Of a DNA stretch of 33,832 nucleotides, positions 1 through 32,533 are shown piece after piece (the stretch's first letter is position 1; the number at the start of each line of letters is the position of its first letter). The translations under genes were made by a program, and so were the position numbers. The stretch is taken from contig CALGKJ010000068.1 in the NCBI GenBank assembly GCA_937930535.1, positions 1 to 33,832 of the forward strand, in the 5' to 3' direction. The stretch is from an uncultured Clostridia bacterium. Its GTDB lineage: Bacteria; Bacillota; Clostridia; Lutisporales; Lutisporaceae. The notes under the pieces were generated by a model. That model had not been told where the DNA came from. It was given only the letters and a program-made list of their open reading frames with translations, and did no database searches.

Positions 1-58
1 ACAATATCAATATAATAGTCAGAAGCATTGCTGCTATGGGTTTACTGTTTTTTTTCAT
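1..58 (-). CDS. Second copy of secreted signalling propeptide (partial, cut by window edge)
   Basis: The ATG lies at 56-58 on the minus strand and the reading frame runs off the window after about 19 codons. The visible residues begin MKKNSKPIAAMLLTIILIL, nearly the same as the complete propeptide encoded at 74-217 (MKKNNKPIIVMLLTIILIL). A GGGGTGG ribosome-binding site stands in front at the same distance as in the first copy, and only 15 nt separate this ATG from the stop of the first copy. Positions 1-73 match 160-232 at about 68 of 73 bases, so this is a recent tandem gene duplication with a 159-nt period. The diagnostic C-terminal part, which would carry the mature peptide, lies outside the window, so it is unknown whether the two copies encode the same or different signals. 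Confidence 0.75.
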   Translation of the reverse strand, partial: MKKNSKPIAAMLLTIILIL

Positions 59-73
59 CAAATACCACCCCAT

Positions 74-217
74 TTATCGTATTATTATATATATCGGGTT
101 AGGCATACTATGACCAATAGGATCACGAATATCCCCTGCAAAAGAGATCACCGAAAATGACAATATCAATATAATAGTCAGAAGCATTACTATTATGGGC
201 TTATTGTTTTTTTTCAT
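74..217 (-). CDS. Small secreted propeptide, putative RRNPP-type signalling peptide (Phr/AimP-like)
   Basis: A 47-residue product. The ATG at 215-217 is chosen because GGGGTGG lies 5 nt upstream; the longer frame opening at 259 would place the ribosome-binding site inside the coding sequence. Residues 1-6 are basic and polar, residues 7-26 form a hydrophobic signal core, and ISFA ending at about residue 27 is a plausible signal-peptidase site. The remaining 20 residues include DPIGHSMPNP and would be exported. The gene overlaps the last 17 nt of the TPR receptor gene, the usual layout of Rap-Phr and related receptor-propeptide pairs. In those systems the exported propeptide is trimmed, re-imported by an oligopeptide permease and bound by the cytoplasmic TPR receptor. 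No homologous peptide was recognised by sequence; the function rests on gene order, size and signal sequence. Confidence 0.72.
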   Translation of the reverse strand: MKKNNKPIIVMLLTIILILSFSVISFAGDIRDPIGHSMPNPIYIIIR

Positions 218-1472
218 CAAATACCACCCCATATAATTTATATAATTTTCCAGACACATGCCCTAGACATTGGTACAAGCCATCAGTATAGCCTTGGCTG
301 GTTGATGCATCTGCTAATTCCATTATAACTGCGAAAAGTCTGTTTAAGCAACGCTTATCTTCTGTTGTCTTGATGAACTGCTTTATATTGTGTATTACAT
401 CCGCTTTGTTCAACTGCTTTCCTTTTGTGCTTAACAGCTTATCAAGATATATCTCATATGCCTCTGTTTCTCCCAGCTTTGACAGTATTTCCACATATGT
501 TTCTGCATAAATCAACATCTTAGTTAGATCACTCTCTTTTTCAACCATGTCCATAGCTATCTTTATATATTCTAACGCATTTTCATAATCCTCTATAATC
601 CTGTATACCTCGGCAATATTGTTATTTACTGAAGCTGTAGTTGATACATTTTCCTCATCATAGTAATCCAAAGCCTCATAATAATATTTAATGGCATCAA
701 CATAATTTTCTTGATATTTATATGTCAATCCTTTATTAGATACAGCACCAGCCTTTTCATAATTTTTAACGGCATGTTTTATTGCTTCTTCAAAATATTT
801 CCTTGCTGTATCGTATTTATCTTCACTCAGATAATATATGCCTCGCCAGTAGTAATAATAAAACAGTGTAGTACTGCTTAGACTTTCCTTATTCTTGCGT
901 ATATGCTCCTCTGCTATTCTGAACTTTCTGTGAGACTTCTCCATAAGGTTCTCATTCTGTAATATAAAAGCAAGCTCACAGTAAAAGAAAACCAGTTTGT
1001 CTATTTCCTCTTTGGGCAGGTTATCTATAGCAAACTGGTAGTTTGACTCAGTATTATCTATCCAGTTTGTATAGTAGTAGTTTCTTGCCTTTGCTCTGTA
1101 CATCATGGCTGTTTCCAGTTGCATATTTTCTTTTTTGGTTTCCTCAATAAGGTAGTCCATCATTTCTTGGTCGGTGTCTTCGTTGTATTTCCTTATTTCG
1201 TCATATATCATTTGGGCATATTTTGTAATCTGCTGTTGGGTGGAAAGAACGACCTTTGCATAATCCATACCCAGAGTATTAGTGACTATACATCTTATGG
1301 TGTCGGACATATTGGTTTCCTTGCTGAGATAGGAGCGAAAGGTTGACAATGCCATTGTAATATTGTTGCTCTCATAATATGTCCTTACATCCTTGTATCT
1401 TGCTTCTATGGCTTTTCGTATCTGTTGACCTTCGCCCAATATTCGTACATCTTCCAGCTTTAGCTTGCTCAT
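201..1472 (-). CDS. TPR-repeat cytoplasmic regulator, RRNPP-type peptide receptor
   Basis: A 423-residue soluble protein with no signal peptide or membrane segment. Residues 1-75 look like a compact helix-turn-helix of the lambda-repressor type: TMALSTFRSYL would be the recognition helix region and is followed by MSDTIRCIVTNTLGMDY. Residues 100-400 are tandem TPR-like helical pairs, for example DKYDTARKYFEEAIKHA, NYVDAIKYYYEALDYY and DYENALEYIKIAMDM. This layout fits RRNPP receptors (Rap, NprR, PlcR, AimR), which bind short re-imported peptides in the TPR groove. A small secreted propeptide gene overlaps its 3' end and is tandemly duplicated. A promoter with an inverted repeat over the -10 box lies upstream, so autoregulation is plausible. 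The targets are unknown; the exosortase pair upstream is a candidate only by proximity. Confidence 0.75.
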   Translation of the reverse strand: MSKLKLEDVRILGEGQQIRKAIEARYKDVRTYYESNNITMALSTFRSYLSKETNMSDTIRCIVTNTLGMDYAKVVLSTQQQITKYAQMIYDEIRKYNEDTDQEMMDYLIEETKKENMQLETAMMYRAKARNYYYTNWIDNTESNYQFAIDNLPKEEIDKLVFFYCELAFILQNENLMEKSHRKFRIAEEHIRKNKESLSSTTLFYYYYWRGIYYLSEDKYDTARKYFEEAIKHAVKNYEKAGAVSNKGLTYKYQENYVDAIKYYYEALDYYDEENVSTTASVNNNIAEVYRIIEDYENALEYIKIAMDMVEKESDLTKMLIYAETYVEILSKLGETEAYEIYLDKLLSTKGKQLNKADVIHNIKQFIKTTEDKRCLNRLFAVIMELADASTSQGYTDGLYQCLGHVSGKLYKLYGVVFDEKKQ

Positions 1473-1499
1473 ACTCTACTACCTTCCATCATGATATTT

Positions 1500-1559
1500 A
1501 TAATATGTATGAATATAATAATACAAACATATTATAACATTTTATGGCAAGTGTTACAA
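1500..1559 (-). promoter_or_regulatory. Promoter of the TPR receptor gene with overlapping inverted repeat
   Basis: On the minus strand TTGTAA (1554-1559) and TATAAT (1531-1536) are separated by 17 nt. An inverted repeat, ATAATATGT (1500-1508) and ACATATTAT (1527-1535), has one arm over the -10 box, as an autorepressor operator would. The region is AT-rich, so the repeat could be chance. Confidence 0.5.
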
Positions 1560-1616: not shown

Positions 1617-4427
1617 CTATGAAGTTATCTGCCTTACAGCCCTCCTACGTTTTTTCACAAACAGCAGTACACACATCAAAGGTATAGCAATCAACAATAT
1701 AGCCGGCTCATCCATTTCTGTCATATCGTTAACATCCACTGGTTTGTCAGTTGCTAGAAGCTCCTTTTGCTTTTGCAGCATTGCTTTTTCCTGAGCCTCG
1801 TTTTCCAGTACTATAAAGGAGGTTAGGGGACTGAGGGTATTGCTGTTTATACTGCTTCTTACTATGGCAACGGATTTGTCAGTATATTTTTCTGGGTGCA
1901 GAAGATAGCTCATGTATGCCGCTTTCAGCATAATGCCCTGCTCCCATTTGGAGGCTTTTACTTCATTGATATCAGGGTCAAAATTATCATTCAGCAGTAC
2001 AATGTCATCCTGCTGGTTATTGGGCAGATAAAAGCTTTTGCTGTTATTGCTGTGCCAAACTGCTACAGGCTCATAGTTTATCTGTTTTATGTGCTCTGGT
2101 ACACTATAGCTGCTGTTTTGCAGCAGTGAGTATCTGGCAATAGTTTTTTCATCCATAAGGTGATAATAGTATATGCCCTCGGGACAGGTAAAGCCTAGGG
2201 ATTCAAAGTCTCTTGATAGTATTGCCTTATCAATATTGTCTGTGCTTATTATTATTACTGGATAGTATTCCGAATTACTGGTATAGCTTTCGTAGAGTAT
2301 TCTTTTTATGGTATAGTCAAGGTTAAAGCCTGCTTTTATACCTAGCTTTTCAACTCCTTTGCTCCAGTCCTCCTCCGGCTTCATTATTTTTTCGTTGTAG
2401 TTTACCAATACTATCTGGCTTACAGAGGTGCTTATATCGTTGTTGTCTATGTATTCTTTTATTCTGTCTATATATTGATTTACCTTTTGTTTATTTTCAG
2501 CCGAGCAGTCTATTACAAAATAATAGGCTGGCTTTCTTAGTGTTATTTTCAGATTGTCTTTAACCTCTTTTGGTATATATGCATAGTCTTTGTTTTGTAT
2601 TATACCCTTATGTAGTCTTGTATTATCTGCTGATGTCTCACCTAACTGCAGGGTTCTATTTTCTATCTGCAAGGCAAAGGGTGTTCTATGGGATATTTCC
2701 ATGCCTGTTTTTCTTGTTTCTCTTGCCCCAAAGGGGAATACCTTCAGCTCATATTTGTTTCCACCTATATTGCTTATTATGCCCGGGTCTCTGCGTATCA
2801 GCTTATTTTGATTGTATACCCAGTTGGCGGCTCTTTTATCTGCAATCATGCCGAACTTTTTTCCTTCTGGTACATACAAATAATAGTCGGTTATATAACA
2901 GCCCTCTGGAAGCTCAAAATTGGTAACAAACTCTCCCTGAAAATCGTTGTTGTTTTGAAGCTCAAAGCTTATCCAGCTTTTGTAGACTCCTTCTGCGCTG
3001 TCAAATATGCTACTGGTATCAATCTGTCTTATATAAACGTCGCTGATAAATGAATCAAAGGTTTCTTGATTATTATTGCTTTTATATTCACCTAAAAAGG
3101 CTTGCTCCAGCCGCCTTATCTTGCTGTCTGCCATACTGGTGTTGTCAAGTACATACCAGTTATAAAAGGCACTTAGATATGGTGTATTAGTGTTTCTGAA
3201 ATTAAAAAAGTCATTTCTGCTGCTCTTTAAATATTTTATATTGTTTAGTACTCTTTCTACTCCTTTTGTATCTATGGATAAGGGAGCTTTTTCCGTAAAG
3301 CTTCTTTGGTAGGTATGCTTTAGGGCGTTGTCTACATTTATTCTGTCGTCGCTTATTGATGCTGTAAGCAAGGCAGGTATTGATAATACAGCTACAGCAA
3401 ATAGGACTGCCAGCAAGCCTTTTTTGTAGTGTCTTTTGAGAAACATAAAATCATTGTAAAGGGTTTTGGTATGGAGCAGCGTAAGGATTAGGGGTACAAG
3501 CATAAGTATTCCTGCTCCAAAGGCAATTATTGCAATTAATGATAGGGGTAAATAGGGCAGAAATACTAAAAAGAAATAAATACTGTATACATAGGTAATG
3601 CTTCTGGCAATAAAAATAATCAGCCTTAACCTTGGACTGCTAGTCTCAGGAATTATCATAAGCAAAGAGGTAGCTGCTGCCAATACATAAAAACCGTAAT
3701 GGGAGAAATCTCCAAATACATTCCCCATTGACCGATTTAGCAGTAAGCCGAGTATGGAGCCTATCAGTACAAGGGGGGCGAGAAGGTTTTTCCATGCTAA
3801 TGTCTTTCTGCTTAGAAGCACATAAACAACTCTTACAAGAAAGAAGAAAAAAACCGTTGCTGATAGTATAAATACTATGGGGATAATTTTTTCTAAGGCT
3901 CTTACTAAGCCCATTCTAAATATTCCAAACATAAGATGGAACGTGGTATACCAGAAAAATGGTATTCCAAACACCATGAAAATATCTTTTTCTACGCTTT
4001 TTATTTTATACTTTTCTACAGTCCAATGAACTGCAATAAGCATAGCATATGCTAAGGCAGGCATAATCAGCGTCAGCAGGGACATTCCCGGCTCTATGCC
4101 CATAAACAGCCAGTTAGGTATATTGGAGGGTATAAAGCTTGAATGATTTAAAAAGTATATTGTAAGAAATGTCGTGTATACACTAAACATTGGTACTGCT
4201 ATAAGAGGGTGTATTTCTTTTTTTCGATATATGCTTATACTTGCGTAAGCCGTAAATATAATACAGCAAAGTGGCATAACTATGGCTGATACAGTCCATA
4301 GCTTTACTGCCTCTGGTGTCAGCTCTGATCCTATGATGCTGTATAGCTTGTAAAATAGACTGAAAAGAGTTATTTGGGGTATGGTAACAGTAAAAAATAG
4401 TATGTAGGGCTTATATAAATTCTTCAT
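1617..4427 (-). CDS. MSEP-CTERM-type sorting-domain membrane protein, exosortase K target
   Basis: A 936-residue protein. Residues 1-360 hold about ten hydrophobic segments. The rest is largely extracytoplasmic: a VIT/inter-alpha-trypsin-like stretch (about 470-590, with FELPEGCYITDYYLYVPEGK), then a vWA-like stretch opening with YYFVIDCS whose metal site is degenerate. The C-terminus has the tripartite sorting tail of this family: MDEP near residue 906 (family consensus MSEP), a hydrophobic segment and KKRRRAVRR-like basic residues. MSEP-CTERM proteins are known to occur singly beside exosortase K. Here the ATG overlaps the exosortase gene by 17 nt with GGAGG at 4434-4438, so the two are translationally coupled. 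The biological role of this pair is not known. I see nothing broken. Confidence 0.8.
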   Translation of the reverse strand: MKNLYKPYILFFTVTIPQITLFSLFYKLYSIIGSELTPEAVKLWTVSAIVMPLCCIIFTAYASISIYRKKEIHPLIAVPMFSVYTTFLTIYFLNHSSFIPSNIPNWLFMGIEPGMSLLTLIMPALAYAMLIAVHWTVEKYKIKSVEKDIFMVFGIPFFWYTTFHLMFGIFRMGLVRALEKIIPIVFILSATVFFFFLVRVVYVLLSRKTLAWKNLLAPLVLIGSILGLLLNRSMGNVFGDFSHYGFYVLAAATSLLMIIPETSSPRLRLIIFIARSITYVYSIYFFLVFLPYLPLSLIAIIAFGAGILMLVPLILTLLHTKTLYNDFMFLKRHYKKGLLAVLFAVAVLSIPALLTASISDDRINVDNALKHTYQRSFTEKAPLSIDTKGVERVLNNIKYLKSSRNDFFNFRNTNTPYLSAFYNWYVLDNTSMADSKIRRLEQAFLGEYKSNNNQETFDSFISDVYIRQIDTSSIFDSAEGVYKSWISFELQNNNDFQGEFVTNFELPEGCYITDYYLYVPEGKKFGMIADKRAANWVYNQNKLIRRDPGIISNIGGNKYELKVFPFGARETRKTGMEISHRTPFALQIENRTLQLGETSADNTRLHKGIIQNKDYAYIPKEVKDNLKITLRKPAYYFVIDCSAENKQKVNQYIDRIKEYIDNNDISTSVSQIVLVNYNEKIMKPEEDWSKGVEKLGIKAGFNLDYTIKRILYESYTSNSEYYPVIIISTDNIDKAILSRDFESLGFTCPEGIYYYHLMDEKTIARYSLLQNSSYSVPEHIKQINYEPVAVWHSNNSKSFYLPNNQQDDIVLLNDNFDPDINEVKASKWEQGIMLKAAYMSYLLHPEKYTDKSVAIVRSSINSNTLSPLTSFIVLENEAQEKAMLQKQKELLATDKPVDVNDMTEMDEPAILLIAIPLMCVLLFVKKRRRAVRQITS

Positions 4428-4935
4428 TGGTTACCTCCATTCTTTTTATCAGATAAGAAAATAAATAGTATGTGCATGCCAGATATACAAAATAAAATAT
4501 CACTCCCACAGACTGATGCAGCAGTACAGCTTGCTTTATGTCCGCCGCAATGCCAAGGCGCAGTACCAATATGGATGTAATTATCCTTGAAGCATTGGCA
4601 ATTATTGTTACTATATAGGATACAGCTAAAAAATAGGTCATAAGCAAGGGTTTGTCTTTACGTCCTCTGACCTTTGCCGCAAAGGATATGGTAAGCATCA
4701 GAAATATAACTATAAAAAAGTTTATGCCTGCACATTCTCGTCCAATAACTACCGACAGCTTATCGCTTACATATCCAAGCTCGGGGTAGTAGTCAAAGGG
4801 GCTGTTCATAGCTTTTTCTACCAAGGAAGCTACAGGTTTTAGAATAAATAGTAAATAGTCTATGCTTAAGTATGTATGTATATACTTAAGTCCCAAGGCT
4901 ATAGCTGCGGCGACTCCATATATTATATAGCTCAT
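4411..4935 (-). CDS. xrtK: Exosortase K
   Basis: A 174-residue multi-pass membrane cysteine protease/transpeptidase that should process the C-terminal sorting tail of the next gene. The exosortase catalytic set is visible: Cys68 in GRECAGINFF, Arg117 in ANASRI and His140 in LLHQSVGVIF. About five hydrophobic segments surround them. The start at 4933-4935 is chosen because AGGAGG lies at 4941-4946; the frame opens earlier at 4983 without a ribosome-binding site. Exosortase K with an MSEP-CTERM target is a one-enzyme, one-substrate pair, unlike PEP-CTERM systems with many substrates. Exosortases are common in Gram-negative biofilm formers and much less so in Clostridia, so this is a notable occurrence. 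An inverted repeat at 4994-5032 lies upstream. Confidence 0.85.
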   Translation of the reverse strand: MSYIIYGVAAAIALGLKYIHTYLSIDYLLFILKPVASLVEKAMNSPFDYYPELGYVSDKLSVVIGRECAGINFFIVIFLMLTISFAAKVRGRKDKPLLMTYFLAVSYIVTIIANASRIITSILVLRLGIAADIKQAVLLHQSVGVIFYFVYLACTYYLFSYLIKRMEVTNEEFI

Positions 4936-4993
4936 AGTATCCTCCTGTTTATATTTATATATATATTTTATACAATAACCCATAGTAAGTTAA

Positions 4994-5053: not shown

Positions 5054-5082
5054 TTGCCTTTTGTAAATTCCTCTGCTATAAT
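5054..5082 (+). promoter_or_regulatory. Sigma-A-type promoter of the fluoride riboswitch-antiporter transcript
   Basis: TTGCCT (5054-5059) and TATAAT (5077-5082) are 17 nt apart. Predicted initiation near 5089 is exactly where the riboswitch aptamer begins, which supports both calls. Confidence 0.8.
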
Positions 5083-5084
5083 TG

Positions 5085-5163
5085 CTTTAGGTGATGGAGT
5101 TCGCCTTTAACCGCAGAGATGCTAATGACTCCTACTGATTTCTATGTCAGTAGGAGTTTTTTT
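5085..5163 (+). promoter_or_regulatory. Fluoride riboswitch (crcB motif) with intrinsic terminator
   Basis: The conserved pieces of the crcB-motif aptamer are readable in order: GGTGATGGAGTTCGCC (5090-5105), then TTTAACCGC, a short variable stem, and GCTAATGACTCCTAC (5121-5135). The aptamer's 3' strand is also the start of a terminator hairpin (5128-5157), so fluoride binding would be expected to prevent termination and turn the downstream gene on. It stands between a good promoter and the antiporter start at 5193. Fluoride riboswitches are known to control fluoride channels, CLC-F exporters and some cation/proton antiporters. Confidence 0.9.
5128..5163 (+). terminator. Riboswitch expression-platform terminator
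   Basis: ACTCCTACTGA (5128-5138) pairs perfectly with TCAGTAGGAGT (5147-5157) around an 8-nt loop and runs into seven T (5157-5163). The 5' arm is shared with the 3' part of the fluoride aptamer, giving mutually exclusive structures. Confidence 0.9.
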
Positions 5164-5192
5164 GTGTAAAAAAATCAAAGGATGTGAGTATT

Positions 5193-6377
5193 ATGGCAAC
5201 AAGTATAGGTATTATTGTTATTTTGGGACTTTTAGTTAATGCAGCCTTTACAAGATTAAAGCTTCCGGGACTATTGGGAATGCTTATTTTGGGTGCTGTC
5301 ATAGGTCCTTATGGTCTTGACTGGCTGACGCAGGATTTGCTGACTATATCAGGTGATTTTAGAAAAATCGCACTTATTATTATACTGCTGAGAGCTGGTC
5401 TTGGGATTAGCAGGGATGAACTGAACAAGGTAGGAAAAACAGCAGTAAAGCTTAGCTGTATACCTGGACTGCTGGAGGGCTTTTCTATAGCCTTTATTTC
5501 TATGGTGCTTTTAGACTTTTCCTTTATACAGGGTGGAATACTGGGCTTTATTATTGCCGCTGTGTCACCTGCTGTTGTAGTTCCGCAAATGCTATATTTT
5601 TCTGAAAAGGGTATGGGGACGGATAAGGGTATTCCTACTCTGATACTGGCAGGAGCTTCTATTGATGATGTTTTTGCAATCACCATTTTTTCAACCTTTT
5701 TGGGTCTTTATAGCGGAAGCCATATAAATATCGGAATACAGCTTTTTAGCATTCCTGTTTCTATTATTTTGGGCATAGGCTTGGGAATAGTAGCAGGCTT
5801 GGTGCTGATAAAGCTGTTTACGAGGTTTCATATACGGGATACAAAAAAAGTTCTGTATATTTTAGGAATATCTATACTGCTTACTGCATTGGAAAGCTTA
5901 CTAAAAAGTAAAATTGAAATTGCAGGACTGCTTGGAGTTATGACTATAGGGTTTATACTGCTGGAAAAGAAACCGGATGCTGCTAAGAGATTATCGGCAA
6001 AATTTAATAAGATATGGGTGTTTGCAGAGATACTGCTTTTTGTACTGGTTGCGGCTCAGGTGGATGTAGCAGTTGCTATGAATGCTGGTATAAAGGGCTT
6101 GATAATCATATTTGCAGGCCTTACTGCCAGAAGTATTGGGGTTTTAGTGTCTACAAGTGGTACAAAGCTTAATGTTAAAGAAAAGCTGTTTTGCGTTATC
6201 TCTTATACTCCAAAGGCTACTGTTCAAGCGGCTATCGGTGCTATACCTCTTTCTTTGGGGGTTGCCTCGGGGGATACTATTTTAGCCATAGCTGTTTTAT
6301 CAATACTGATAACTGCTCCCCTAGGGGCAATCGGGATAAAAGCCTCTGCTAAAAAACTGCTGAACTGCGAGCAGTAA
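5193..6377 (+). CDS. Cation:proton antiporter (CPA family), fluoride-responsive
   Basis: A 394-residue polytopic membrane protein with about 11-12 hydrophobic segments. It has the discontinuous-helix and ion-site signatures of Na+/H+ exchangers: AAVSPAVVVPQ near residues 122-132 and GASIDDVFAI near 154-163 with paired Asp158-Asp159. ATG 5193 is preferred to GTG 5184 because AAAGGAT lies about 9 nt upstream of it and would sit against the GTG. It is the only gene under the fluoride riboswitch, so its likely job is to restore pH or cation balance, or to support fluoride efflux, when fluoride (HF) enters the cell. The transported ion cannot be told from sequence. It converges with focA on a shared terminator. 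Confidence 0.85.
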   Translation: MATSIGIIVILGLLVNAAFTRLKLPGLLGMLILGAVIGPYGLDWLTQDLLTISGDFRKIALIIILLRAGLGISRDELNKVGKTAVKLSCIPGLLEGFSIAFISMVLLDFSFIQGGILGFIIAAVSPAVVVPQMLYFSEKGMGTDKGIPTLILAGASIDDVFAITIFSTFLGLYSGSHINIGIQLFSIPVSIILGIGLGIVAGLVLIKLFTRFHIRDTKKVLYILGISILLTALESLLKSKIEIAGLLGVMTIGFILLEKKPDAAKRLSAKFNKIWVFAEILLFVLVAAQVDVAVAMNAGIKGLIIIFAGLTARSIGVLVSTSGTKLNVKEKLFCVISYTPKATVQAAIGAIPLSLGVASGDTILAIAVLSILITAPLGAIGIKASAKKLLNCEQ

Positions 6378-26383: not shown

Positions 26384-29300
26384 TTATACAGCTCCACAAT
26401 CCGTCGTTTCCTTCATTCTTACAAGGATTTCTACCTCGCAGCAATCCTTAAATTCATGCAGCAGCTCGATAGCAATATCGCAGTAAAATTCCATACTTTT
26501 ATCAACATATCCTTTTAAGGCATTATATGCCTCAGAATCTTTACTCATTTGAGTCAAGATCTCTGCCTTTATTCTGTTTACTATTCCAAGCTCATAGGGA
26601 TTTTTAGCCTTTTCTGCATAGGCTTCTGACTGCGTAAGGTGGTAGAGTACGTCTGTATAATTTTTCTCCTGCATCAGAACCAGTGACATATATCCATTAG
26701 CTGTTGACCTGCGCCATAGTGTATCAAGCTGTGCGTACAAGCTTAATGCTCTTGACAAATGCTCCTTTGCTGTCTTATAGTCCCCTAGATCATAAGCGGC
26801 TTGACCTGCATTTGTGTGAAATATTGCTACTCCTCTTATCAGTTTATTGTCATCGCAAATGGCTATGGCTTTATTATATAGCTGCACTGCTTCTGCAAAC
26901 TGTTTTTTGCATCTTTTTATTTCACCCATGTAGTTATAGGCGGCAGCAATATTCAGTACATACCTGCTTTTGTTTTGCTGAGTCTCAAAAATCTCGATAG
27001 AGCTTTTTAATAAAGCTTCTGCATCATCAAATGAACCCAGCAATATATTATAAAGTCCTTTTAACCTTAATAGCACACCTTTTTCTGCAATATTTCTTGT
27101 TTGTTCAACGATTTCAATTGACTTTTCTATATATTTTCCCATATTGAGCGTATTTCTGGTATTGATGCAGTAGTATATTTTTTGTCTTAGTCCCTTTAAT
27201 AGATATTCCATATTGCATATAGCTTCCGCAGCTTCTATTACCTGATCTATTATTGATATTCCCAGCTCATACTCCCCTTGACCTATATAGTAGCGTCCCT
27301 TCATATGCATAAATGAGAGCTTAAGAAGCTTGAATTCGTCAATGTCATGTGCATTGCTGCCAACGGTATTTAATAGCCGCTCTAGCTCATCAAGCTGATT
27401 TCGTGCCTGCTCATAGCTTAGATAAAGATATTTACATTGGTGCATGCCTATATCACTTAGTATTGGAAATATTTCATGGCTGAACTGCAAATACTCCTCT
27501 ATATTTTTTATACTGTATTTTAGTTGAGCAAGCTTATCATTTGCATGCTGATAGTGGTATATGAGCCTTGAGTATCTCAGTCTGTCAGTTACATCATTTT
27601 GCAGCTTTGCTTCTAAAAGCTTTGCTATCCTGCTGTGCAGCAATCTTCTTCTTGAAGCTGACATTTCGCTGTATATATATTCTCTAAGCTTTTGGTGAGT
27701 AAACTCAAAGCCTATTTCTTCATTGGATACAATCTCATTTAATAGTGCTTTTTGTTGAAGCTCTTCCATAAGCTCTATAAGCTCCAGCTCATCCTTGCCG
27801 CTTAGTTCCTTTAGTATATCAAGAGAAACTCTGTCAAAGAATACTGATGCCATGTTGAGTATTTTTTTTCCTTCCTCGGATACATTTATAATTCTGCTTT
27901 TGAGAATATCCTTCATTTTGGGTGTAATGCTTATTTCATAGTTATTTTGCTTTATACTGTTTAAAAATTCAACCAGAAAAAATATATTTCCCTCTGTCTC
28001 TTTATATATCAGTTCCTTAAGCTCCTGTGTAAGCTTGTGGTTTAGCAGTGCGTAAGCAAAGGCTTCTGTATCCTCCATGCTTAGCCTTAGAAGCTCAATC
28101 TTTGTACCAAGATTCTTAACAGCTATTTCAGTTATAAATCTGTCTATTTTTTTATCAAAGGTATTTCTACAGGTCGCAATAATCATTATTGATTTGTTTC
28201 TATCTTGCAGTATTATGCTTTTTAAAAGGGATAGACTCATATCATCAATCCACTGTAGATCTTCAAAAAGCAGTACTATTTTTTTATTTTCAGCAGACTT
28301 CCTTAATATGCTTAATACAGTACTCTCTACTACTTGATATTTCAGTATATCATCTCTTTCATAGGCTGGATTACTGCTGTCTTCGTAGGATTTGTCAAAG
28401 GTGGGGAATAAACAGCCTGCGACTTGCCTCCAGCTTTCAGGTATATAAATGCTCTGCTGGCTGATATGCTGCGAAAGCTTGGAAAATATCTCATTCCACG
28501 GCTTAAGAGGGTAGCTCTCCTCAGCTTGATAGCAGTAAGTTTCAAATAGCACAACCTGACTCATATCAGAAAGCTTAAAAAACCTCTCCACCAGCTTGCT
28601 TTTTCCAATGCCCGCTTCTCCTAAAACTATAACTGCCTTTCCACAGGAATTTTTAACAAAATTGTCATATGCTTCATGGATAAGCTTTAGCTCCTGCGTT
28701 CTGCCATAAAAGAACTCCTCGTCATTTAAGCTCGGCTTGTCTGCCTTATGAGTCTTTGCTTTAACCAAATCTTCAAATACCTTTATAGTCCTGCTGTCTG
28801 GAGAAATAGACAGCTCCTTGCTGAGAATTGACTTCAGCTTGTTGTAAACCTCAATACCTTTATTATGCTGACCTTCCTTGCTGTAAATCTCCATTAAACG
28901 TCTGTATGAGTCTTCATCCAAATGGTCAACACCTATTAACTGCTTACAGTATATTTCAGCGGATTTTAAATCTTTTTGATCCCAGCAGTCTTTTAAAAGC
29001 TTGTTAAGCTTATTAATATACATGTATTGGTATTGCTCTCTTTTTTGAAACATCCACTGTTCAAACCGCTCTGCATCCTTAACTAAAAACCCCTGCAAAA
29101 ATTCATCTGTATAAAGCTCTACACATGATGAATTACCGCACTTAATAAAGCTTTCCAGATCAATATTCCATGCAATATCGGCATTTAACATTATATTTGC
29201 TCTCTGGGGCGAGACTACAACATCTTCATCAAATATTTTTTTAAGAGTGTATACTGCATTACGAAGGTTCTTTTTAGCCAGACTGTCTTCCTGCTCTGAC

Positions 29301-29452
29301 CAGAGCAGATCCACCAGCTCGTCTCTGGAAGCATTTTTTTTGATTGCTAGATAGTAGAATAGTGCTTCCACCTTTCTAAAAGGAAAAACAATAACTTGTT
29401 CATTATAGAGTACTTCCGGCGTTCCAAGAAGTTTAACTTTAATACTATTCAA
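26384..29452 (-). CDS. SARP/BTAD-type transcriptional regulator with AAA ATPase and TPR repeats (copy 1)
   Basis: A 1022-residue regulator. Residues 1-95 form an OmpR-like winged helix (FPFRKVEALFYYLAI, RDELVDLLWSE, KKNLRNAVYTLKK). Residues 95-235 are the bacterial transcriptional activator (BTAD) domain. A STAND/AAA ATPase follows, with Walker A GEAGIGKSK (278-286) and Walker B IVLLFEDLQWIDD near 390. Residues about 620-1010 are TPR-like repeats. The start is TTG at 29450-29452 with AAAGGGGGAG upstream, and its first residues align with the paralogue's start. It lies 27 nt downstream of that paralogue, so the two are co-transcribed. Such proteins integrate a ligand or partner signal through the TPR/ATPase part. 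The targets are unknown; the neighbouring acetyltransferase has decayed. Confidence 0.82.
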   Translation of the reverse strand: MNSIKVKLLGTPEVLYNEQVIVFPFRKVEALFYYLAIKKNASRDELVDLLWSEQEDSLAKKNLRNAVYTLKKIFDEDVVVSPQRANIMLNADIAWNIDLESFIKCGNSSCVELYTDEFLQGFLVKDAERFEQWMFQKREQYQYMYINKLNKLLKDCWDQKDLKSAEIYCKQLIGVDHLDEDSYRRLMEIYSKEGQHNKGIEVYNKLKSILSKELSISPDSRTIKVFEDLVKAKTHKADKPSLNDEEFFYGRTQELKLIHEAYDNFVKNSCGKAVIVLGEAGIGKSKLVERFFKLSDMSQVVLFETYCYQAEESYPLKPWNEIFSKLSQHISQQSIYIPESWRQVAGCLFPTFDKSYEDSSNPAYERDDILKYQVVESTVLSILRKSAENKKIVLLFEDLQWIDDMSLSLLKSIILQDRNKSIMIIATCRNTFDKKIDRFITEIAVKNLGTKIELLRLSMEDTEAFAYALLNHKLTQELKELIYKETEGNIFFLVEFLNSIKQNNYEISITPKMKDILKSRIINVSEEGKKILNMASVFFDRVSLDILKELSGKDELELIELMEELQQKALLNEIVSNEEIGFEFTHQKLREYIYSEMSASRRRLLHSRIAKLLEAKLQNDVTDRLRYSRLIYHYQHANDKLAQLKYSIKNIEEYLQFSHEIFPILSDIGMHQCKYLYLSYEQARNQLDELERLLNTVGSNAHDIDEFKLLKLSFMHMKGRYYIGQGEYELGISIIDQVIEAAEAICNMEYLLKGLRQKIYYCINTRNTLNMGKYIEKSIEIVEQTRNIAEKGVLLRLKGLYNILLGSFDDAEALLKSSIEIFETQQNKSRYVLNIAAAYNYMGEIKRCKKQFAEAVQLYNKAIAICDDNKLIRGVAIFHTNAGQAAYDLGDYKTAKEHLSRALSLYAQLDTLWRRSTANGYMSLVLMQEKNYTDVLYHLTQSEAYAEKAKNPYELGIVNRIKAEILTQMSKDSEAYNALKGYVDKSMEFYCDIAIELLHEFKDCCEVEILVRMKETTDCGAV

Positions 29453-29479
29453 GTGTGCTCCCCCTTTGGTATTGCTGCA

Positions 29480-32400
29480 TTATTCCTTGTTCTTTTTTAG
29501 TGCATTTAAAATTTCGATCTCATAGGGATTTTTAAGCTTTTTTAAATAACCAATTCCTATATTACAGTATTCATCCAGCTCTATATTTAGATAGGAAGAA
29601 AATATATTGTTTATTCTTATATTTCTTTCCATGCTGGATTTTATTTCTGCTTTTACTCTATATATAAGCCCCATTTCGTACGGGCTTTTCAGCTTGTCTG
29701 CATATGCTTCAGCCTTTTTCAGATAGCTTAGTGCGCTTTTGTATTCTCCGTTCTTTACCTCTACCAATGCCATATAAGCTTCCGCAGTAGATCTTCCCCA
29801 AAGCATATCCATCTGATTATACATCTTGATAGCCAGATTCAGATATACTCTGGCTCTATGATAATCCCCCATATCCAAAGCCGCCTGACCTGCATTGGTA
29901 TAAAATATTGTCAAGCCCCAAGGGATGCTTTTAACCTCGCAGATGTTTATTGCCTTATCGTAGTAATCCAGAGCTGTTGTAAATTTCATATTGTGTCGCC
30001 GTATCTCTCCGATATAGTTGTAGCAAGCGGCAATATTCAGTATATATTTGTCCTCCTGATTTATGGAGTTAAACATTCCTATCGCCTGCTTCAATATCTC
30101 CTCTGCTTCCTCATATTTTCCCTGCATTATTCTGCTTAAGCCCTTAAGGCGAAGCAGTATGGCTGTATCCTCATGCTTATTGTGCTTCATGGACAGCTCC
30201 AGCCCTAGCTGTATATAGTCATCCATCAAGCTGATATCGTGAATCTGAATGCTATAGTATATCATTTGCTTATAGCCCTTCAGCGCATGCTTCTGGTCAT
30301 TAAGCTTCAATGCTGTATCTATCATTTCAATTATGCATGCTGTACCAGCATCATATTCCCCTTCCTTAATATGGTATCGACCCTTTAGGTGAAAAAACTC
30401 CATATTAAGCTGTGCAATGCTGTCAAAGGGGGTTTCCTCTAGCTTTACCTTTTGCATTAGCTGCTCAATCATATCAAGCTGCTCTAAAGCTTCATCAGAA
30501 TTAATATTAATATGTGGATTATTACTGTTGCCAGAGCTTATTATAGGAAAAAGCTCATGCTTTAAGTCAAAAAATACATCCAAATTTTTTATTCTGTATT
30601 TCAGCTCTGAAAGCTTGTTTCCACTGTTTTTGTAGTGGTATATCAGCTTGGGATAAATAAAGCGGTCTCTTTTGTCCTTATGCAGCTCCTTTTCAAGCAC
30701 CAAGCCTATTTTATTATGAATAAGCTTTCTTCTTGCCAATGACTGCTGCTGGTATATGAATTCTCTAAGCTTTTGATGAGTAAACTCATAGCTTATGCTG
30801 TCGCTGTCCGTTTCCTTTAATATCATTTTGTTTTTCAGCTCGTCCAGTATATCAATCAGCTCCATATCATCTTTTCCGCTTAACTGCTTCAATAGATCTA
30901 TTGATACTTCATCAAAGAATATGGAGATAATATTTAATATCTTTCTGCCTTCGTCGGGAATATCAATAAATCGGCTTTTCAGTATATCCTGAGCCTTTGG
31001 ATTCAGTGCTCCTATTTCACCTGTATCCTTAATAGTATTCAGAAGCTCAACCAGAAAAAAGGCATTGCCTGAGGTTTCTTCAAAAATCTGATTTTGCAGC
31101 TCTTTTGTCCATTTACTGTGGGGTACTACCTTTTTTGCTATTTCTTCAACCTCTTTTTCAGTAAACCTTTGAAGCTCCAGCTTTGTGATTGCATCATATT
31201 TGGACATGGTCGAGATAAAGCTTTCTATTTTTTTGTCGTATCCGCTTCTGCAAGTTCCTACCAGCATTATGTTTTTGCTTCTTTGGTGCAGCATTATGTT
31301 TCTCAGCAGGGTTATACTGGTGCTGTCCATCCATTGAATATCATCAAATATCAGTATCAGCTTTTGTTTCTGGGAAAGCTTGTTTAATACTCCAATAATA
31401 GCTTCCTCAGCCACTTGAAATTTAAAGCTGTCTATTTTTTCTATACTGCTTACTACAGCCATATTGTTTTCCTCAGCAAACATTGGAAATATATGAGCAA
31501 TAATATTAGTCCAGATGGATGGAAGCTTAATATTGCTTTTCATTATGATATCCTTTAATCTGGCAAATATATCATTCCAAGGCTTTAGAAAATACCCCTC
31601 CTCTGCTTGATAGCAGTTGGACTGTAAAAGCAGTACCTTTTGTCCTCCTGTAAGCTCTATAAATCTGTCCTTTAATCTGGTTTTGCCTATGCCCGCTTCT
31701 CCTGCAATTATGATGGATTTGTGACTGCTGTCGTTTAAAAAGCTGTTGTAGTTGTACATCATTATATTAAGCTCTTCTTCCCTGCCGTAAAAGAAGGCTT
31801 CCGTACTTTTCTTTTTAATAGGATGCTTTATATCTCTTTCTACAAGTATTGCTTCCATTAGGCTTTTAGTTGACGCATCTGGTGATATGCCCAGCTCTTT
31901 TTCCAATACAGCAGATAATTTGTTGTATGTATCTACTGCTTTATTGTAGGAGCTTTCCATAGCATAAATCTTCATTAATAGGCTGTAGGAGTTTTCATCA
32001 AAGGGGTCTTGATTTATCAAAAGCTTGGAGTAAAGCTCTGCCTGTTTTGTATCTTCATTTTGTATGCATTTATTTATATAAACGTATAGTTTTTGTCGGT
32101 ATGCTTCTTTGTAAAGCTCTCTTTGTGTTGTCAGCCAATCCTCAAACTGCTCTCCATCCTTGACGTTAAAGCCTTGCATAAACTCTCCTGTATAGGCATT
32201 AATGCTTTCTAGTTCACTGTTATTTAAAAAGGCTTGTAAATCAGAAGAAACTGTTATATCTGGGTTTATCATAGCTATGGATTTTTGCGGAGAAATAATT
32301 ATATCTATTCCAAAGGCTTTCCTTATCATATACATAGCATGTCTAAGGTTTTTCTTTGCTGTTTCCTCGTCTGCCTCGCTCCAGAAAATACTTACAAGCT

Positions 32401-32533
32401 CGTCTCTAGCAGCTTGACCTTTGGTCAGCAGGTAGTAAAATAGTGCTTCTGCTTTTTTAAATGGGAATATTACTATTTTGTTGTTTATTGTTACTGATGG
32501 AGTGTTGAATAATTTTACGAAAATGCTATACAT
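29480..32533 (-). CDS. SARP/BTAD-type transcriptional regulator with AAA ATPase and TPR repeats (copy 2)
   Basis: A 1017-residue paralogue of the downstream gene, collinear over the whole length. The winged helix (residues 1-95, FPFKKAEALFYYLLT, RDELVSIFWSEADEETAKK) is followed by BTAD (95-235). The ATPase has Walker A GEAGIGKTR (278-286) and Walker B LILIFDDIQWMD. TPR-like repeats follow (for example GKYEEAEEILKQAIGMF and KFTTALDYYDKAINIC). The two proteins share position-for-position domain boundaries but have diverged well beyond a recent duplication. ATG 32533 follows AAAGGAG, with a promoter at 32573-32601. Full-length paralogues in one operon suggest that they act together or respond to different inputs. 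Confidence 0.82.
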   Translation of the reverse strand: MYSIFVKLFNTPSVTINNKIVIFPFKKAEALFYYLLTKGQAARDELVSIFWSEADEETAKKNLRHAMYMIRKAFGIDIIISPQKSIAMINPDITVSSDLQAFLNNSELESINAYTGEFMQGFNVKDGEQFEDWLTTQRELYKEAYRQKLYVYINKCIQNEDTKQAELYSKLLINQDPFDENSYSLLMKIYAMESSYNKAVDTYNKLSAVLEKELGISPDASTKSLMEAILVERDIKHPIKKKSTEAFFYGREEELNIMMYNYNSFLNDSSHKSIIIAGEAGIGKTRLKDRFIELTGGQKVLLLQSNCYQAEEGYFLKPWNDIFARLKDIIMKSNIKLPSIWTNIIAHIFPMFAEENNMAVVSSIEKIDSFKFQVAEEAIIGVLNKLSQKQKLILIFDDIQWMDSTSITLLRNIMLHQRSKNIMLVGTCRSGYDKKIESFISTMSKYDAITKLELQRFTEKEVEEIAKKVVPHSKWTKELQNQIFEETSGNAFFLVELLNTIKDTGEIGALNPKAQDILKSRFIDIPDEGRKILNIISIFFDEVSIDLLKQLSGKDDMELIDILDELKNKMILKETDSDSISYEFTHQKLREFIYQQQSLARRKLIHNKIGLVLEKELHKDKRDRFIYPKLIYHYKNSGNKLSELKYRIKNLDVFFDLKHELFPIISSGNSNNPHININSDEALEQLDMIEQLMQKVKLEETPFDSIAQLNMEFFHLKGRYHIKEGEYDAGTACIIEMIDTALKLNDQKHALKGYKQMIYYSIQIHDISLMDDYIQLGLELSMKHNKHEDTAILLRLKGLSRIMQGKYEEAEEILKQAIGMFNSINQEDKYILNIAACYNYIGEIRRHNMKFTTALDYYDKAINICEVKSIPWGLTIFYTNAGQAALDMGDYHRARVYLNLAIKMYNQMDMLWGRSTAEAYMALVEVKNGEYKSALSYLKKAEAYADKLKSPYEMGLIYRVKAEIKSSMERNIRINNIFSSYLNIELDEYCNIGIGYLKKLKNPYEIEILNALKKNKE

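Follow-up and report, generated by a model that had tools for sequence, protein, structure and literature searches.

The locus at the start of the window, the whole 33,832-nt stretch of DNA analysed here, is very probably an RRNPP-type cassette for peptide quorum sensing, with putative signalling, maturation and regulon, in which two tandem propeptide genes would give one receptor both a higher dose of signal and a close variant of it. The receptor gene (201–1472, minus strand) encodes a 423-aa regulator with a predicted Xre-type HTH domain (approximately residues 12–76; 1245–1439, minus strand) and a C-terminal TPR superhelix (approximately residues 78–414). Propeptide copy 1 (74–217, minus strand; MKKNNKPIIVMLLTIILILSFSVISFAGDIRDPIGHSMPNPIYIIIR) is preceded by a Shine-Dalgarno-like GGGGTGG and consists of a signal peptide followed by an exported tail with DPIGHSMPNP. 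As the original prediction had it, this gene has 47 codons and overlaps the receptor, by 17 nt at the receptor stop, and it is duplicated with a 159-nt period (positions 1–76 and 160–235 share 92% identity over 76 nt). Propeptide copy 2 begins at position 58 (1–58, minus strand) and is broken off by the contig end. The genome of 4.69 Mb is in 252 contigs, of which the window is the whole of C68, with no further extension inside the contig, and leftward extension was obtained from another contig of the same genome, C65 (3,638 bp), whose end matches the window start region. An exact 37-nt overlap with the minus-strand end of the window, in the right orientation, completes copy 2 as MKKNSKPIAAMLLTIILILSFSVISFAGDVHDPISHSMPNPIQTIVQK, which gives ...SFAGDVHDPISHSMPNPIQTIVQK against ...SFAGDIRDPIGHSMPNPIYIIIR in copy 1. 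Because this overlap falls in the letters that tell copy 2 from copy 1 (ATAGCAGCA versus ATAATAGTA), the inferred join across the assembly break is credible. No third propeptide copy is present in the C65 sequence after copy 2, where a 12-bp terminator-like hairpin is found (RNA z-score −5.0); an extra identical copy may conceivably have been collapsed by the assembler.

Upstream of the receptor, a promoter-like TTGTAA-N17-TATAAT whose second hexamer follows a TG (1531–1559, minus strand) has a form common to most paralogues. Promoter-like matches in this region do not rise above shuffled sequence, and recurrence upstream of the paralogues is the stronger argument for it. Just past the −10 lies a 40-nt palindrome, TTATAATATGTTTGTATTATTATATTCATACATATTATAA (1498–1537, minus strand), which scores 11 against a maximum of 10 in 60 shuffles. 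It is a weak candidate operator, since most paralogues are without it. No operator palindrome common to the regions upstream of the receptors was found, and among the close paralogues only that of the window slightly exceeds its shuffles.

The predicted receptor structure is compatible with the RRNPP reading at the level of fold. Pfam finds only generic TPRs above cut-off in the window receptor, and the RNPP-specific curated models of Pfam and NCBIfam do not match it. The AlphaFold model, computed from an alignment of the window protein with five relatives, has a mean pLDDT of 90.5 and a pTM of 0.84. With Foldseek alone, unrelated TPR proteins came out on top, and a second aligner, VIA-align, was needed to place NprR and Rap: apo NprR came second among solved structures and is the best RRNPP structural match (Z 22.5, 308 residues, 4.4 Å), Rap–peptide complexes reached Z 21–22, and the NprR/Rap range is Z 19–22.5 over approximately 300 residues. 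Superhelices of unrelated eukaryotic TPR proteins (7t7t, LGN) reach scores equal to those of NprR and Rap, and fold similarity alone is therefore not proof of peptide-pheromone binding; the model shows a predicted fold compatible with NprR and Rap, function aside. RRNPP(A) receptors have a C-terminal TPR or TPR-like peptide-binding superhelix and a length of approximately 250–500 aa, a range that includes the 423 aa found here, and carry an N-terminal HTH in all subfamilies except Rap. When the first 80 residues of the window receptor are folded alone (pLDDT 73), the N-terminal domain forms five helices, including 14–25, 29–35, 42–49 and 57–67, and VIA-align matches it to HTH structures at Z 8.0–8.4 (ImmR 8.4, SinR 8.2, PrgX 8.1), with ComR and PlcR at approximately 7. 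A Z near 8 is modest, and Pfam HTH_3 gives a weak match in relatives only. The N-terminal HTH of the original prediction is therefore supported by predicted structure rather than by sequence, and its TPR region by both Pfam and the model. NprR itself consists of an HTH, a Rap-like three-helix bundle and nine TPRs, and its peptide NprX is of the SKPDIVG type. NprR–NprX resembles the window locus in pairing an HTH and TPR receptor with a downstream propeptide and in overall receptor fold; it differs in receptor sequence (approximately 15% identity) and in its peptide.

The cassette belongs to a large paralogous expansion. A tblastn-style search of the source genome returned 37 receptor matches, corresponding to 33 receptor genes or remnants once fragments split across contigs had been merged by hand. 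Two of the 33 end at a contig edge and are not assessable; 25 of the remaining 31 have a Sec-type secreted propeptide ORF of the DP type (core DPxG) downstream. A consistent lack of this small frame behind receptor homologues had been set beforehand as the finding that would count against the RRNPP-type architecture, and the frame is also present downstream of receptors in related genomes. Here secretion was called by charge and hydrophobicity, not SignalP, a measure by which both copies at the window locus qualify as adjacent secreted-propeptide genes. The same downstream test was passed by 3 of 141 other ORFs (146 ORFs of at least 150 aa had been taken as controls, and five of the eight that passed were receptors missed by the filter). 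No recognisable propeptide follows six receptors: L033, L034, L036, the two tandem receptors in L040, and the remnant L042. Two tandem propeptide genes occur at seven loci (the window, L003, L010, L011, L027, L028 and L029), and L031 has a single propeptide with an internal HDPYN/DDPYN repeat. The L027, L028 and L029 subgroup has a DPWG core, with paired propeptide genes approximately 151–152 nt apart in all three.

Between the two copies, dN/dS is below 1 in all seven tandem pairs: 0.44 for the window, 0.19 for L003, 0.40 for L011, 0.75 for L027, 0.10 for L028, 0.14 for L029 and 0.76 for L010, with small counts for each pair and with a second copy in L010 that has lost the DP core. Pooling six pairs by hand gives approximately 50 synonymous changes over 197 sites versus approximately 55 nonsynonymous changes over 631 sites, the purifying selection on the small frame that the RRNPP reading called for. 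The value of 0.44 between the window copies, together with the recurrence of the same arrangement across the genome, argues that the window repeat is not due to chance. These data also bear on the idea that the cassettes are chiefly units of a selfish or mobile kind, copied around the genome and mostly in decay, with second propeptide copies as functionless slippage products. Decay is evident among the 33 loci, several of which are truncated, frameshifted or interrupted by internal stops (L007, L025, L026, L042); the degenerate second copy of L010 fits such decay as well, and many contigs break at cassette loci. However, several tandem pairs have a dN/dS well under 1 (0.10–0.44), no transposase or integrase is consistently adjacent to the cassettes, and the receptor has no match in viral contigs, phage records or plasmid records. 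As such, we give this idea hardly any credence.

The propeptides themselves point to a candidate signal in their conserved core, not at the propeptide end. D or E precedes P in 29 of the 30 propeptides compared (a set that leaves out the second copy of L010), and G occupies the +3 position in 22 of them. Both window copies keep DPI[G/S]HSMPNPI while their C-termini differ, which argues for the core rather than the C-terminal end as signal and agrees with the earlier placement of the signal around DPIGHSMPNP; the receptor's own candidate peptides would lie within GDIRDPIGHSMPNPIYIIIR and GDVHDPISHSMPNPIQTIVQK. The tail is less conserved than the signal part, with mean propeptide identities of 30% and 41%, respectively. 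Distances between receptor TPR regions correlate with tail distances (r 0.42, p 2e-4), and the correlation with distances in the signal part is higher (r 0.74). Co-inheritance therefore explains at least part of the receptor–tail correlation, and the correlation may be plain co-inheritance. Two features of the tails are unusual: at approximately 18–20 residues they are longer than known mature RRNPP signals, and 10 of the 30 carry a conserved Cys at +6, which is uncommon in such signals. Both would suit a different role for these peptides, secreted or anchored in the membrane, such as that of an antimicrobial or a membrane partner, under the control of an HTH–TPR protein that senses something else. 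Against this, the position and size of the small ORFs, their signal sequence and variable tail, the NprR/Rap-like TPR receptor and the Opp genes all follow the RRNPP pattern, so we regard such a role as improbable.

From the architecture of the quorum-sensing cassette, we infer a scheme of export, trimming, re-import, TPR binding and HTH switching. The two small genes would be translated and their products exported by Sec, with signal peptidase cutting after ...SFA. Trimming of the exported tails would then leave a short peptide from within DPI[G/S]HSMPNP(I), which an oligopeptide permease could take up; four SBP_bac_5 oligopeptide-binding proteins, as well as Spo0A, are present in the genome. 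Inside the cell, the TPR superhelix of the receptor encoded next door would bind the peptide, and the receptor's HTH may then change its grip on DNA. Since the conserved core of the two copies differs at a single residue, the duplication most likely provides a higher dose and a close variant. The suggestion that multiple copies mean dosage or diversification thus stands in part: there are two copies, not more in the available sequence, and diversification at the window locus is modest because both are nearly the same over the core. Across the genome, the approximately 30 cassettes, each with its own tail variant, suggest many parallel private channels.

Several known systems share parts of this arrangement. 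AloR–AloP pairs an HTH–TPR receptor with a secreted propeptide of 32–50 aa, reaches 40 receptors per genome, 27 of them with a peptide, includes some receptors without one, and is essentially restricted to Paenibacillaceae (PMC7425212). The present family is like Alo in its order of HTH–TPR receptor and then propeptide, its large paralogous expansion and its receptors without peptide; unlike in Alo, its host is a member of the Clostridia, its propeptides keep a DPxG core and some of its propeptide genes stand in tandem, differences that set it apart from AloR by description. The Qsr–Qsp systems (QssA–H) of Clostridium acetobutylicum have Qsp C-termini that conserve Leu, Pro and Trp, as in QspB7 AEPTWGW (PMC7376267). 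They too have an HTH–TPR regulator followed by a propeptide, several to a genome, in Clostridia, whereas the 30 tails here conserve D-P-x-G and, having no conserved C-terminal Trp, fall outside the Qsp pattern. For Rap–Phr, a 2022 survey reports 71 Rap loci with two neighbouring, slightly different propeptide genes and terms systems with multiple propeptides 'chatterers' (PMC9765709, PMC11343458); it saw no multiple propeptide ORFs in the rest of the RRNPPA subfamilies under survey (PMC9765709). The window locus is like Rap–Phr in having one receptor and two neighbouring, slightly different propeptide genes, and unlike it in that Rap has no HTH. Precedents thus exist in Alo for the expansion and in Rap for paired propeptide genes. 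What is new is the subfamily, its DPxG signals, the tandem propeptide genes behind HTH-bearing receptors, which the 2022 survey saw for Rap only, and possibly an RNA/micro-ORF arm. The claim that neither protein belongs to a named family accordingly holds for the literature and family libraries searched, in which no subfamily member was found, and fails for the kind of system, which is known from Alo, Qss and Rap–Phr. To our knowledge, few RRNPP systems have been worked out in Clostridia, to which this family adds an expanded set of peptide channels (approximately 30 receptors, 25 with their own signal gene). With DPxG as a constant frame and variable residues around it, the paralogues form a natural data set for the divergence of receptor–peptide specificity.

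Among the genomes sampled, the receptor subfamily appears only in one GTDB family of Clostridia. Receptor matches occur in 5 of 22 genomes of the GTDB family of the source genome, with 34 in the source genome and 1–3 in each of the others, and in a sample of the class Clostridia 3 of 393 genomes have one match, all in that same family. The named relatives comprise Clostridia MAGs, a MAG of Bacillota and a genome that NCBI lists as 'Calditrichales bacterium MX18-03'. A scan of genome contigs with an alignment of relatives recovered six loci; nothing was confirmed in the same scan with a 23-paralogue alignment.

Nine cassettes (L005, L007, L010, L012, L025, L029, L030, L031 and L036) have a structured element of approximately 100 nt on the same strand, 497–773 nt downstream of the receptor match, followed by a leaderless, acidic micro-ORF of 21–46 aa with the core D[ILV]E[LMTF]P. 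Two covariance models identify 15 RNA copies in the genome (11 type 1 and 4 type 2), six of which lie more than 1 kb from any receptor (on C134, C169, C65, C33, C69 and C117); if the join holds, the C65 copy is approximately 3.2 kb past the window receptor. A naive binomial for 9 of 15 copies within 1 kb of a receptor gives 4e-19, a value overstated because the copies share ancestry. The 11 type 1 copies show 9 pairs changed on both sides, versus 2.3 in shuffles and 0–3 in slid controls, in an alignment that had been fitted to the model, and one copy folds at z −8.4. The micro-ORF follows all copies except that on C69, and for its core, pooling over non-independent pairs gives pS 0.84 and pN 0.14. 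Neither gathering nor relaxed Rfam thresholds assign the RNA to a family, a search of 21 family members with covariance model R1 brought up no copy, and the RNA has no match in phages, nor its core in viral contigs. A DIELP ORF nevertheless occurs at the corresponding place in the relative G001. The type 1 outer stem, AAAAAGTGATA/TATCACTTTTT, led us to consider a MITE with terminal inverted repeats. This is disfavoured in that the stems covary and most copies share flanks, a Shine-Dalgarno-like AGGAGGTGA upstream and the micro-ORF downstream, though the C69 copy lacks the latter. More tentatively, the unit in this lineage could be a four-part cassette of receptor, one or two DPxG propeptide genes, RNA and micro-ORF, the last two perhaps being a local output of the peptide signal or an arm that feeds back on it, which would be an unprecedented type of quorum-sensing target. 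The RNA and DxELP micro-ORF are as such a concrete, testable candidate for what some channels control.

The cassettes have no shared neighbour gene apparent from the ORF lists. Beside the window receptor, at 1617–4983 (minus strand), a gene for an MSEP-CTERM protein (TIGR04286, E 1.7e-231) adjoins one for exosortase K (TIGR04287). This sorting pair was considered as a dedicated target of the receptor and rejected; the flanks of the other inspected cassettes are without it, so the adjacency is taken as chance. A fluoride riboswitch (5081–5141, plus strand; Rfam, 56.2 bits) immediately precedes an ORF for a 397-aa membrane transporter-like protein (5184–6377). Further along the window, 26384–32533 (minus strand) encodes two similar neighbouring BTAD/AAA/TPR (SARP/STAND-like) regulators of approximately 1,020 aa each.
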